A program made the position numbers and the translations under genes. From contig NZ_CP012697.1 of the NCBI RefSeq assembly GCF_001314225.1, forward strand, positions 3,038,001 to 3,102,000: DNA of 64,000 nucleotides, given 5' to 3'. This stretch comes from Microbacterium sp. No. 7 (GTDB lineage: Bacteria > Actinomycetota > Actinomycetes > Actinomycetales > Microbacteriaceae). Below are positions 27,746 through 57,109 of this stretch, piece after piece. Positions within the stretch are counted from its first letter, which is position 1. Each line of letters begins with the position of its first letter. The notes beneath the pieces were generated by a model. The model did no database searches, was not told the DNA's origin, and worked only from the letters and a program-made list of their open reading frames with translations.

Positions 27746-27837
27746 TACTCCACGGTACGTCCCGCCCCCGACATTTGCCCGGAACGACGCGGTTCCACTC
27801 CCCACGCCGCCCCGCCGCCGCGCGGCTGCGACCGTCT

Positions 27838-27965
27838 CCCCGGCATCCGCGCTCCCCGGCATCCGCGCTCCCCGGCATCCGCGCTCCCCGGCATCCGCGC
27901 TCCCCGGCATCCGCGCTCCCCGGCATCCACCTTCTCCGGCATCCGCCCTCCCCAGCATCCGCCTT
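27838..27965. repeat. Eight tandem copies of a 16-bp unit
   Basis: The unit CCCCGGCATCCGCGCT is repeated head to tail; the first five copies (27838-27917) are identical and the last three degenerate. Each copy carries GGCATCC, a heptamer over-used throughout the window. It lies between ftsK and the acetyltransferase gene, in the 411-bp gap 27746-28156, where I see no gene. Confidence 0.9.
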
Positions 27966-27972
27966 CCCCAGA

Positions 27973-28037
27973 ACAGGAGATATCACCGGCACAGGACGTT
28001 CGCGCGGGAATCGTCCTGTGCCGGTGATATCTCCTGT
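27973..28037. repeat. 26-bp perfect inverted repeat (long hairpin)
   Basis: Arms at 27973-27998 and 28012-28037 are perfectly complementary over 26 bp with a 13-nt loop; each arm contains ACAGGA twice and GATATC. It may serve as the terminator of the acetyltransferase gene, a REP-like element, or a protein-binding cruciform upstream of ftsK. It lies 8 bp after the 16-bp tandem repeats. Confidence 0.9.
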
Positions 28038-28155
28038 GGCCGGAAGCGCCCGGAAGCGGCCGGAAGCCGCCGGAACCCGAAGCCGGAGCCCGCAACCCCA
28101 GCCCGGAACCCCAGCCCGGAAACCGAGCCCGAGCCCCGAGCCCCGGCGGAGACGA
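28038..28155. repeat. Degenerate short tandem repeats
   Basis: About four 10-bp units of the GCCGGAAGCG type (28038-28077) are followed by two copies of a 13-bp ACCCCAGCCCGGA-like unit and more CGAGCCC-type sequence up to the acetyltransferase stop. Low complexity with no coding signal. Confidence 0.6.
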
Positions 28156-32692: not shown

Positions 32693-33448
32693 TCACGCCA
32701 TCGGGAGCAGGCCGAGGCCGCTCGCCGCGCCGCGTGCGAGCAGCGCGCCGACGATCGCGATCAGCCACGCCGAGCTCGCGCCGCCCGCCCCCTGCATCCA
32801 TCCGGCCACGCGGTGCAGCGCAGGCTCCGCCGCGCGGGCGAGCAGCAGCCGCACGGCGAGCGCCGCCAGGGCGGGCACGATCATGACGACCACGTACCCC
32901 GCGAGCAGAGCGTACTTGGCGCCGAGCGCGACCGGTTCGCCGGCGATGAGGCCCATGCCGATCAGGTAGGGCAGCATGCCGGCGAGCTCGACGACGCCCG
33001 CGGCGAGCGCGACGCCCACGACGGACCATGCCGATGCCTCGTCGTCGAGCGCCCGGTCACGCCAGCGCAGCACGCGTCCCCCGGTGCGCACGGCCGTCTC
33101 TCCGCGGGCCCTCGCCTCCTTTCGCCGCCTCGACTCGCGCATGCCGACCGCGATGCCGCCGACCAGCATCGCGAGACCCGCGACGAGGATCGTGAGGCGC
33201 CCCGCCGTCGATTCGACGAACGCCACCGCCGCGCCGATGAGGTTCACGATGCCGAGCATGAGCAGCACGCCGACGCCGAGGTAGAACAGGCAGATCGTCG
33301 CCAGGTACAGCCCGATGCGTCGTACGCGCACACGCCCGGGAGCGAGCAGCAGGAACAGCGGGATGAGAAAGGTGCCGACGCTGAGCCCGTCGCCGAGGGC
33401 GAGCACGACGAGGGCGAGCGGAAGGGGGATGCCGGTGAGGAGGTCCAT
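32693..33448 (-). CDS. GAP/Sap-family integral membrane protein
   Basis: A 251-residue protein with six hydrophobic helices and a charged central loop (residues ~110-140) in the arrangement of the GAP (LysE-related, Sap/sulfolipid-addressing) family. It probably exports or flips a lipid or amphiphilic molecule; the cargo is unknown. ATG 33448 follows a GAGGG-type site. It stands 44 bp downstream of the thyA start region, divergent from the histidine kinase gene. Confidence 0.75.
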
Positions 33449-33549
33449 GCCCTCCACGCTCGCGCGCCCGCTCCGCGCGCGCATCGGGAGAAGGGCCCGT
33501 CCGTGTCTCATCCTTTGGTCGGAGTCGGGCGTGCGACGCTTCTGCTTGC

Positions 33550-34767
33550 ATGGATGCCATGACCGCACTGCTCGCCCTGCCCGCCGAGACTGCGGCGAGA
33601 CGCTGGCTCGGCCTGCCGCGTCCGGTCATCGACGCACTCGCGTTCTCGGTGCTGGCGGTGATCGCCGCGCGCGCCGGACTGACCGGGCTGTTCGGGTTCG
33701 CGCAGCTGCTGCCGCCCGTGTCGCCCTGGTGGACCCTCGTGACGGCGCTGCCCGCCGCGTCCCTCGCGCTGTGGAAGCATCGCGCGCCCGGCGCGGCACT
33801 CGGCGCGGCGACGGTCCTCACGATCGCCGACCTGCTCACCGTGGGCGGCCTGATCCCCCTCTTCGTGCTCGTGGACGCGCTCTACGCCGCGGCGGTCACC
33901 GTCTCGCCGACCGCACGACGACGTCTGCTGGGCGCCCTGGTGCTCGCGGTCGCCGCGCTCACCCTGTTCGCGCTGGCCCGCACGGGCGATCCGCGCGCGA
34001 TGATCATGGTGGCGGTGCAGACCGGGGGCATCCTCGGCATGGCGTACTGGTTCGGCACCTCGGTCGCGCAGTCGCGCATGCTGATGGATCAGTCGCAGGA
34101 GCTCGCCGAGCTGCATCGCGCCGCGGCGGAGAACGCCGCACGGCTCGCGGAGCAGAACCGCGCGGAGGCGGTGCGCGAGGAACGCGAGCAGATGGCGCGC
34201 GAACTGCACGACGTGGTCGCGGGGCATGTCGCGGCGGTCGCGATCCGCAGCGAGGCGACCCTCGCGGCGCCGGGGGCCGACTCGCCCGAGCGGCACGCGC
34301 TGCGCGCGATCCGCGACACGAGCCTGCACGCTCACGAGACGCTGCGCGAGATGGTCGCCGTGCTGCGCTCCGACCACGACACGGCGGCTCCCGCGCGTCC
34401 CGATGTGCCGGCGCTCGCCGCGCAGGCCCGCGCCTGGGGACTCGACGTCGTGCTCGACGACCGGCTGACGGCTCCCGCCGCCGGCGCCGCCGACCAGGCC
34501 GTGCGACGCATCGTGCAGGAGGCGCTGGCCAACGCGTCGCGTCACGCACCGGGCTCCGCCGTGCGTGTCGGGCTCTCCGAGGAGCCCGGCGGCATCGGCG
34601 TGCGCATCCTGTCGACGGGCGGGCGTCGACAGGCGGGCCTGTCCGGCAGCGGATGGGGCCTGCACCTGCTGCACGAGCGCGTCGCCGCCCTCGGCGGCTC
34701 GCTCGAAGCCGGCGCCGCCGAGGACGGCTGGCTCGTGAACGCCGTCGTGCCCAGGGCGGCCTCATGA
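33550..34767 (+). CDS. Sensor histidine kinase (DesK/HisKA_3 type)
   Basis: A 405-residue kinase with five or six hydrophobic helices in residues 1-180, a coiled-coil linker and the HisKA_3 helix REQMARELHDVVAGHV with phosphoacceptor His220. The HATPase N box (EALANASRHA) is present, but the usual DxGxG motif reads as STGG, a weakening seen in many actinobacterial relatives; the late GSGWGLHLLHERV box is intact. Its stop overlaps the first of three tiny cistrons that lead to the response regulator. Confidence 0.9.
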   Translation: MDAMTALLALPAETAARRWLGLPRPVIDALAFSVLAVIAARAGLTGLFGFAQLLPPVSPWWTLVTALPAASLALWKHRAPGAALGAATVLTIADLLTVGGLIPLFVLVDALYAAAVTVSPTARRRLLGALVLAVAALTLFALARTGDPRAMIMVAVQTGGILGMAYWFGTSVAQSRMLMDQSQELAELHRAAAENAARLAEQNRAEAVREEREQMARELHDVVAGHVAAVAIRSEATLAAPGADSPERHALRAIRDTSLHAHETLREMVAVLRSDHDTAAPARPDVPALAAQARAWGLDVVLDDRLTAPAAGAADQAVRRIVQEALANASRHAPGSAVRVGLSEEPGGIGVRILSTGGRRQAGLSGSGWGLHLLHERVAALGGSLEAGAAEDGWLVNAVVPRAAS

Positions 34768-34818
34768 CCAGGGCAGCCTCATGACGAGGGCAGCCCTATG
34801 ACGAGGGCAGCCCTGTGA
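34764..34818 (+). repeat. 17-bp tandem repeat encoding three overlapping six-codon cistrons
   Basis: ATG 34764 opens MTRAAS and ends TGA 34784; ATG 34781 opens MTRAAL and ends 34801; ATG 34798 opens MTRAAL and ends 34818; the regulator GTG is 34815. Each stop overlaps the next start by 4 bp (ATGA, ATGA, GTGA), and the kinase stop overlaps the first in the same way. The unit is a copy of the kinase 3' end (CCAGGGCGGCCTCATGA). It gives a stop-start chain across the operon junction. Confidence 0.85.
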
Positions 34819-35459
34819 CGCGCGTGCGCGTGCTGCTCGCCGACGACCACGCGATGATCCGCGAGGGTCTGCGGCTGATGCTGGAATCGCACGGCATCGA
34901 GGTCGTCGGCGAGTCCGCCGACGGCGCCGCGGCGATCGCGGCGGCCGGCGACCTGCGCCCCGACGTCGTGCTCATGGACCTGCGCATGCCGGGGACCGAC
35001 GGCGTCGAGGCGACACGCCGCATCGTCGAGTCCGGCGGCGCAGAGGTCATCGCGCTCACCAGCTTCGACGAGGACGAGCTCGTGCTCGGCGCCCTGCGTG
35101 CGGGCGCCGTCGGCTTCCTGCTCAAGACGGTGGATGCCGCCGGGCTCGCCGACGCGGTGCGCCGGGTGGCCGCGGGCGAGGGCGTGCTCGACCCGCGGGT
35201 GACCCGCCGTGCACTGCGCGCCGTGCGACACCCCGGGTCCGCGGCGTCCGCGCCCCCGGCCGGGCTGAACGACCTCACGGACCGCGAACGGGAGGTGCTC
35301 CGGGCGATGGGCGAGGGACTGTCGAACGCACAGATCGCGGCGCTGCTGTTCCTCTCCGTGCCGACCGTCAAGACGCACGTCTCGAACGTGCTCGCCAAGC
35401 TCGGCGCCGACAGCCGCACGCACGCCGTGGCGATGACGCGCGACCTGCCGCCGTCATAG
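34815..35459 (+). CDS. NarL/LuxR-type response regulator
   Basis: A 214-residue regulator, partner of the kinase ending at 34767. The receiver domain has acidic residues at 10-11, phosphoacceptor Asp55 in VVLMDLRMPG and Lys about 105; the LuxR helix-turn-helix starts LTDREREVLRAMG near residue 153. GTG 34815 is reached through the ATGA/GTGA chain described above and has no independent ribosome-binding site of note, so its translation probably depends on coupling. Confidence 0.92.
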   Translation: MTRVRVLLADDHAMIREGLRLMLESHGIEVVGESADGAAAIAAAGDLRPDVVLMDLRMPGTDGVEATRRIVESGGAEVIALTSFDEDELVLGALRAGAVGFLLKTVDAAGLADAVRRVAAGEGVLDPRVTRRALRAVRHPGSAASAPPAGLNDLTDREREVLRAMGEGLSNAQIAALLFLSVPTVKTHVSNVLAKLGADSRTHAVAMTRDLPPS

Positions 35460-35492
35460 CGGGCTCCCGCCGCGGGTCCATCGACCCTCGGC

Positions 35493-35518
35493 CTTCGACT
35501 CTCTTCGACTCTCTTCGA
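35493..35518. repeat. Short 10-bp tandem repeat
   Basis: CTTCGACTCT is present twice in tandem, followed by a partial third copy, in the 102-bp gap before the thioredoxin-like gene. Confidence 0.6.
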
Positions 35519-35561
35519 CACATCGGCCCCGGGACACCGCCGCACTGCTTATCCTCCTGTC

Positions 35562-35972
35562 ATGTCCTTGCCGCTGGCCCTCGCGGTCGCCCTCGGCCTC
35601 GTCGTCCTGACGACGGCGCTCGGGCTCGTGCTGCGCGCACGCACGGGCCGGGCGAGGGATGCCGGCGAGCTGCTCCTCGACTCGGCAGACCTGCCGGGCG
35701 GCGCGGGTGCGCGCGGCACGCTCGTGCAGTTCAGCAGCGTGCAGTGCGCGCGGTGTCCCCAGGTGCGACGCCAGCTGACGGCCGTGGCCGATGCCTCCGA
35801 CGGGGTCGCGCACGTCGAGATCGACCTGACCGACCGACCCGACCTCGCAGCGCGCTATCGCGTGCTGCAGACGCCGACGACCTTCGTCGTCGGTCCCGAC
35901 CGCCGCGTCCGTGCCCGCTTCGGCGGACCGCCCCGGCCCGACGAGCTCGCGGCGGCGGTCGCCGCCCTCTGA
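35562..35972 (+). CDS. Membrane-anchored thioredoxin-like protein
   Basis: A 136-residue protein: one N-terminal hydrophobic helix (residues ~3-25), then a thioredoxin fold with the redox motif CARC (Cys near residues 62 and 65) and the cis-Pro region QTPTTFVVGP. It probably handles thiols on the outer face of the membrane. A TATCCT element ends 6 nt before the ATG, so the message may be leaderless. The next gene, DUF4395, is a frequent companion of such thioredoxins. Confidence 0.85.
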   Translation: MSLPLALAVALGLVVLTTALGLVLRARTGRARDAGELLLDSADLPGGAGARGTLVQFSSVQCARCPQVRRQLTAVADASDGVAHVEIDLTDRPDLAARYRVLQTPTTFVVGPDRRVRARFGGPPRPDELAAAVAAL

Positions 35973-56845: not shown

Positions 56846-56854
56846 CCCCCAGCC

Positions 56855-57109
56855 CGCGAGGGTGCCAGGTATTCTCGCGACGGTGCCAGTTGTCCCCGCG
56901 AGGGTGCCACTTGTCCCCGCGAGGGTGCCGTTTGTTCGCGCGAGAGTGCTTTCACGCCCGCGACGAAGGCACCCTCGGCAAGATAGGTGGCACCCTCGGC
57001 AAGACAAGTGGCACCCTCGGCGAGATAGGTGGCACCCTCGGCGAGACAAGTGGCACCCTCGCGGACGGACCGACGGACGAGTGGACGGACGAACGGACGG
57101 ACGGACGAA
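56855..57109. repeat. Inverted pair of 21-bp minisatellite arrays plus a GGAC microsatellite
   Basis: The left array has five 21-bp units of the CGCGAGGGTGCCACTTGTCCC type (56855-56959). The right array has four full units and a partial one in the opposite orientation (56968-57060), in which GATAGGT and GACAAGT ends alternate, giving a 42-bp higher-order period. Together they could fold into a long imperfect hairpin. 57063-57109 is a GGAC/GACG microsatellite. The island lies between converging lacI and LLM genes; both strands are open in several frames, but only because the unit is a multiple of three. Confidence 0.9.

Follow-up and report, generated by a model that had tools for sequence, protein, structure and literature searches.

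Organization of the kinase-regulator junction

The window, meaning the whole 64-kb stretch of DNA analysed, encodes a sensor histidine kinase followed by a response regulator of the NarL/LuxR type (Table 1). In addition to its HisKA_3 domain, the kinase matches Pfam HATPase_c at 1e-4, with a bit score under the cut-off. The start of the regulator is backed by homology, since its GTG coincides in an alignment with the starts of related regulators. Between 34764 and 34818 the two genes are joined through four consecutive 4-nt RTGA overlaps, with three six-codon open reading frames (mini-ORFs, or mini-cistrons) between them. The stop codon of the kinase (TGA, 34765-34767) lies within an ATGA (34764-34767) which also starts the first mini-cistron, and the stop codon of the third lies within the GTGA that starts the regulator. 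This ATGA-ATGA-ATGA-GTGA geometry, with its 4-bp overlaps, had been described in a first-pass annotation, and its coordinates can be read directly from the sequence.

Table 1. Features of the kinase-regulator junction (window coordinates)
Feature	Position	Strand	Remarks
Sensor histidine kinase, 405 aa	33550..34767	+	Pfam HisKA_3 3.8e-9; alternative start 33559
17-bp unit, copy 1	34753..34769	+	Last kinase codons, stop and first bases beyond; pre-duplication junction
Mini-cistron 1, MTRAAS, 21 nt	34764..34784	+	RTGA overlaps at both ends
17-bp unit, copy 2	34770..34786	+	
Mini-cistron 2, MTRAAL, 21 nt	34781..34801	+	Sequence reading
17-bp unit, copy 3	34787..34803	+	
Mini-cistron 3, MTRAAL, 21 nt	34798..34818	+	Sequence reading
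Shine-Dalgarno-like GAGGG of the regulator	34803..34807	+	7 nt before the GTG, inside the last unit
17-bp unit, copy 4	34804..34820	+	Bears the regulator GTG
Response regulator, 214 aa, NarL/LuxR type, GTG start	34815..35459	+	Pfam Response_reg 1.2e-26, GerE 3.9e-19

The mini-cistrons are carried by an array of 17-bp units, detected by TRF with a period of 17, 3.6-4.0 copies and 90-91% matches. The copies vary in 5 of their 17 columns, with AGGG and TGA invariant. The same annotation had taken the unit for a tandem copy of the kinase 3' end, and both TRF and the reading of the copies bear this out, copy 1 being the kinase's own end at the junction. The four-link RTGA pattern at a spacing of 17 occurs once in the window and in none of 100 dinucleotide shuffles.

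Other tandem repeats are found elsewhere in the window. A short CTTCGACTCT repeat lies directly 3' of the regulator gene (35493-35519). Two arrays of about 21 bp, seemingly of one family, stand head to head at 56853-57061 (GAGGGTGCCA and GGCACCCTC) and are followed by a 4-bp CGGA array; at 27836-28143, a 16-bp unit is repeated about eight times, followed by a long inverted repeat (ACAGGAGATATCACCGGCACAGGACG and its complement) and more short arrays.

Origin of the array

Related kinase-regulator pairs were collected at 36 loci, L006 and L062 being one place; 35 were parsed and L057 was left unparsed. All 35 parsed loci show a single direct -4 RTGA overlap, with neither a unit nor a mini-ORF. 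The best kinase match among the 98 genomes compared has 52% amino acid identity, and a contig scan of named close relatives gave one match, of 34%, in Rhodococcus phenolicus. Because the parsed relatives have one overlap and no unit, the most plausible reading of the array is a tandem duplication, specific to this lineage, of the 17-bp stretch across the kinase/regulator overlap.

The interlocking of the mini-cistrons follows from one tandem duplication of a given length class, and not from four independent coincidences. Any duplication across an RTGA whose length is 2 mod 3 yields a closed chain, such that the elegance of the arrangement is a consequence of that class; a length of 1 mod 3 closes at every second unit, and a length of 0 mod 3 produces an N-terminal extension. 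An example of the last is the 18-bp array of L129, located at the junction between a carboxyltransferase/biotin protein and an amidase, where all four GTG codons are in frame and could lengthen the N-terminus of the amidase. Phase variation, in which a repeat switches a gene on and off by frame, was rejected for the kinase-regulator array: the regulator has its own GTG in the last unit, which is unchanged by the gain or loss of 17 bp.

RTGA chains across the genus

A search for four RTGA at 17-bp spacing in 361 genomes of the genus returned 50 chains at 47 places, a few of them read in two registers, from 44 genomes. Of these chains, seven form a bridge from one coding-like frame to another, 14 touch just a 3' end, five just a 5' start and 24 neither. 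Bridging was called by an ad hoc composition test, followed by Pfam analysis of both flanks, which gave matches on both sides for six chains. One of these is the kinase-regulator array. The others join ABC_tran to ABC-3 (G028), a short-chain dehydrogenase to an AAA_5 ATPase through four mini-ORFs (G172), NAD kinase to an SMC_N protein which is here named RecN (G182), a phosphoribosyltransferase to a ROK protein (G375), and MarR to MFS (G300), the last with a unit identity of 66% and possibly due to chance. Closed mini-cistrons thus recur at other operon junctions in the genus. The units of the bridging chains differ from one another, and each resembles its own junction. The energies of their Shine-Dalgarno (SD) duplexes range from -8.7 to -12.2 kcal/mol in the nadK-recN and ABC arrays, from -5.6 to -10.2 in MarR-MFS, from -3.5 to -4.1 in dehydrogenase-AAA and from -1.7 to -2.4 in the ROK pair.

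Relatives of two of these junctions were compared. All ten ABC_tran/ABC-3 relatives L261-L270 have the -4 overlap without a unit, and L274, aligned from residue 1, has a different start; this comparison leaves out L271-L273 and L275-L277, whose starts are unaligned, and L278, which gave no match. For dehydrogenase-AAA the one comparable locus, L286, has a different spacer.

The 14 chains at a coding-like 3' end, in which no coding-like frame starts, point to mutation as the source of such arrays in general. Two arrays of 17-bp RTGA units (L106 and L107, with 4 and 7 RTGA, or 3 and 6 units) lie right after the stop codons of similar 377-aa frames in two genomes; no frame of at least 80 aa begins at their RTGs. 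In L094, a 17-bp RTGA array resembles an amidohydrolase gene start, with mini-ORFs in the 5' leader and an upstream frame that is not coding-like. Three further candidates were not accepted as bridges. In L081 and L096 a long frame lies to either side of the chain, but the downstream one is of antisense-type composition. The third, L341, is a second 17-bp RTGA triple in the genome of the kinase-regulator array, with 86% unit identity; the 137-aa frame before it has no Pfam match, and the next gene, an isochorismatase (Pfam 4.6e-24), begins outside the chain and in a different frame, at 1572.

For comparison, chains of four RTGA were also sought at spacings of 16 and 18, in 356 genomes each. 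Matching genomes numbered 30 of 356 at spacing 16 and 188 of 356 at spacing 18. By composition, three of 36 chains (31 places) bridge at period 16 and, among the matches listed, one of 102 (93 loci) at period 18; period-16 chains close too, at every second unit. Pfam matches on both sides were obtained for one of the 36 and, again among the matches listed, one of the 102; L149 (47% unit identity) is left out of the both-sides count, and L151 and L069 matched on one side only. The reversed pattern at spacing 17, taken as a control, matched in 7 genomes by our reading, which is no proof, since the forward and reversed motifs need not be equally common. These counts hint at a weak preference for 17 over 16 or 18, too weak to claim selection on the period. 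Arrays of an 8-bp RTGA unit were also encountered (L147, L148, L162, L165 and L167); 8 being 2 mod 3, they would give closed three-codon chains, and none of the five bridges two frames of at least 80 aa.

Variation at the nadK-recN junction

The nadK-recN junction was read in 145 of 350 matching genomes of the genus, drawn from the best-scoring list together with earlier picks; 16 listed and about 190 further matching genomes lie outside this sample, and the nadK frame was fixed by homology. The direct RTGA overlap is present in 130 of the 145, including the source genome of the kinase-regulator array, and 15 depart from it. Closed mini-ORF chains, with spacings of 8 to 53 nt, occupy 13 of these 15 junctions. 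There is one 17-bp unit in G002, G040 and G238, two (34 nt) in G183 and three (51 nt) in G182, while single mini-ORFs not made of 17-bp units occur at spacings of 8, 23, 32 (four genomes), 41 and 53. The spacers lacking 17-bp units correspond to loci L349, L351, L356, L357, L361, L409, L418 and L427. The two unclosed junctions are those of G354, where the stop codon immediately precedes the start, and G216, where the first mini-ORF is closed and the next is open.

A tree of 35 genomes groups G002, G040, G183 and G182 (supports 0.80, 0.96 and 1.00), and a larger tree, built from shorter stretches, places G002 nearest to a genome with no unit. Parsimony on the larger tree counts 9 changes between direct and non-direct junctions. 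In that tree, neighbouring positions are taken by the genomes with spacers of 32 and 41 nt, and likewise by those with 23 and 8 nt, the differences being whole codons; related groups at this junction thus differ in length by whole codons (32/41 and 23/8) or by whole units. Four of the 17 unit bases are different between G002 and G040, with the length, both overlaps and an SD energy of -8.7 kcal/mol retained. Closure of the spacers at this junction seems to be favoured, judging from the sequences compared: supposing that closure was retained in some five of seven independent origins and in two further length changes, where frame alone would give 1/3, the probability is about 0.01, by a rough, post hoc sum of our own. 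The closed mini-ORFs need not all be duplications, as a frameshift near the end of nadK could make some of them.

The first-pass annotation had held that units could be gained or lost with the stop-start chain intact. This is what is seen at nadK-recN of relatives, with one, two and three units, rather than at the kinase-regulator locus itself. G182 and G183, with three and two units, are 99.9% identical over 1.3 kb of recN and 0.7 kb of nadK. Such a shift in unit number at near-identical flanks, with the chain closed, would suit a selected rheostat, in which the number of units, adjusted by slippage, sets the regulator:kinase ratio through successive reinitiation. In M. tuberculosis isolates, by the account given in PMC2734929, fpg1 mRNA was likewise higher where the rnc-fpg1 repeats were longer, so that the length of a repeat between operon genes can be correlated with expression of the gene downstream; that case, however, is an mRNA correlation, and an upward one, not a loss per step. 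The SD of the regulator, being inside the last unit, is constant whatever the number of units, and the divergence of the copies implies that slippage at the kinase-regulator array is not recent. Given also that units are absent from the 35 parsed related loci, and that 14 of the 50 genus arrays sit at gene ends with no coding-like frame starting in them, we regard a selected rheostat as unlikely.

Proposed translation through the array

An SD-like element precedes each of the four starts: a GAGGG equivalent to that of the regulator is found at 34786-34790, and AGGG at 34753 and 34770. An SD motif at working distance, one of two features looked for in support of coupling, is present at the array starts, with duplex energies of -6.4, -3.4, -6.4 and -6.4 kcal/mol for 34764, 34781, 34798 and 34815, as calculated with an assumed anti-SD sequence. 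The other, a 4-nt stop/start overlap, is present four times here and once in each of the 35 parsed related loci. In scans of 33400-35600, no promoter was found in a search confined to the sigma-70 type, and no terminator-like site was found.

The array might instead be an inert minisatellite, a neutral spacer whose mini-ORFs are hardly translated and whose regulator uses its own SD in the last unit. The energy and distance of that SD would allow this, and among the RTGA chains of the genus 24 of 50 touch no coding-like frame and 14 of 50 only a 3' end. The fold of the array RNA is unremarkable (z -1.0), which agrees with such a spacer. Sequestration of the SD by folding was dropped on the same grounds: AGGGC and GCCCT within the units are able to pair, yet 31 of 200 shuffles fold equally well or better. 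Nevertheless, the regulator SD is modest: 30 of the 35 parsed related loci have a stronger one (the median over these loci is -8.6), and a neutral spacer would not favour the closure seen in 13 of the 15 departing nadK-recN junctions. An inert array is likewise an improbable reading.

The hexapeptides, or their translation, could also act as a sensor, by leader-peptide attenuation, stalling at AGG or peptidyl-tRNA drop-off. AGG is the third codon of each mini-ORF and accounts for 2.8% of the arginine codons in 42 frames of the window. This codon, however, is at the same time the SD-like element and derives from the 3' end of the kinase itself, the mini-peptides differ at other junctions, and the region lacks a terminator-like site; a sensory role is therefore very improbable.

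The reading that we prefer, with a probability of roughly two in three, is that of a slippage duplication which has been kept because the translational relay stays closed, with the number of units drifting. A 17-bp segment over the overlap of the kinase stop and the regulator start, comprising the SD-like AGGG and the RTGA, would have undergone three tandem duplications, for which replication slippage is the likeliest mechanism. As 17 leaves a remainder of 2 on division by 3, every copy forms a closed ORF of six codons, with its stop codon overlapping the start of the following one, and would bring an SD and a start of its own. A ribosome finishing the kinase would reach the regulator by terminating and reinitiating at the three mini-ORFs in turn, and this relay, along with direct starts at the last SD, would keep the regulator made. 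The array would persist since the relay remains closed, and unit number would drift with time.

The published accounts cited here describe reinitiation at 4-nt overlaps as established in other species (PMC6728339; PMC12548453). Of five gene pairs studied in E. coli, three are reported to have lost 60-90% of their reinitiation when the SD was removed, and one all of it (PMC6728339), while coupling is given as best at -4 to +3 nt in a review (PMC12548453). On these grounds the relay and direct starts would keep the regulator made. Each extra step could lose ribosomes, whereas a gain of up to 20-fold in a target has been reported for short upstream ORFs (PMC13255528). Any change in kinase:regulator ratio is probably modest, and probably not the reason for the array's existence. 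Several observations count against a relay: the SD of the second mini-ORF is weak (-3.4), and the regulator's own SD could make the regulator relay-independent. In addition, G354 and G216 depart from the direct overlap without a closed chain at nadK-recN, and the parsed kinase-regulator relatives have no mini-ORF.

Comparison with known systems

The closest precedent in the sources at hand is provided by the MIRUs of the mycobacterial senX3-regX3 operon (Supply et al. 1997, as cited in PMC12548453, PMC4213456 and PMC2734929). There too, as these sources present it, tandem units lie between a histidine kinase and a response regulator, and the ORF of the unit is coupled at -4 nt to the gene at the insertion site, as reported in 1997 for a mycobacterial two-component operon (PMC12548453). 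The senX3-regX3 intergenic region is described as carrying three 77-bp MIRUs, or two and one of 53 bp, with promoter activity in the region (PMC4213456). MIRUs are copy-variable, and differential translation within an operon has already been proposed as their function, as cited in PMC2734929. Their units, however, measure 40-100 bp and occupy 41 places according to that source, and look mobile, in contrast to a unit of 17 bp and six codons made from the local junction.

The likeness in gene pair and -4 coupling, first described in a mycobacterial two-component operon (PMC12548453), would fit a mobile or dispersed repeat of the MIRU type inserted at the start codon. Here, however, the unit copies its local junction, and the units at other junctions differ, each being similar to the junction it occupies. 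In the 4.83-Mb genome, a 26-base piece of the array, with up to 2 mismatches allowed, gave two overlapping matches, inside the array only. A single 17-base unit, sought in the window, matched two more places at 3 mismatches. The array resembles a MIRU chain in outline but is no MIRU: the unit length does not agree, and dispersal was not found in these searches. Insertion of a dispersed element is accordingly most unlikely.

Other systems share single properties with the array. The 4-nt overlapping gene pairs covered in PMC6728339 have the same ATGA/GTGA overlaps, with the SD inside the upstream gene, but they comprise one overlap, while the array has four in series with three six-codon links. 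The short upstream ORF boosters of E. coli, as outlined in PMC13255528, likewise place a short nonsense ORF with an internal ribosome-binding site directly before the target gene; those are engineered, single and meant for boosting, whereas the array is natural, tandem and located after a long gene. VNTR3239, at rnc-fpg1 of M. tuberculosis, is another repeat array at a gene junction (PMC2734929). That junction is given as only 1-54 bp in the mycobacteria shown outside the tuberculosis complex, and VNTR3239 length is linked there to downstream mRNA (PMC2734929). Unlike those of the array, its units are composites of 55 and 79 bp, and the available portion of that report describes no closed stop-start chain. 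Among the open-access papers listed in literature searches, none was seen on tandem mini-cistrons of the array's kind outside mycobacteria.

Implications

The scarcity of open spacers at nadK-recN suggests that the closed stop-start relay may itself be under selection. A bolder and rather doubtful extension would be that overlapping junctions in this genus stutter, growing closed mini-cistrons again and again, through self-duplication or in other ways, under selection for a closed relay, with a rapidly changing unit number serving as an evolvable dial for the protein ratio of adjacent genes; they would be an independently evolved, miniature counterpart of the MIRUs. The nadK-recN junction offers a natural series of 0, 1, 2 and 3 units, with flanks near-unchanged between two and three, by which reinitiation per step would be measurable on natural alleles. 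Such a series would test the old proposal that the number of repeats at operon junctions sets protein ratios.
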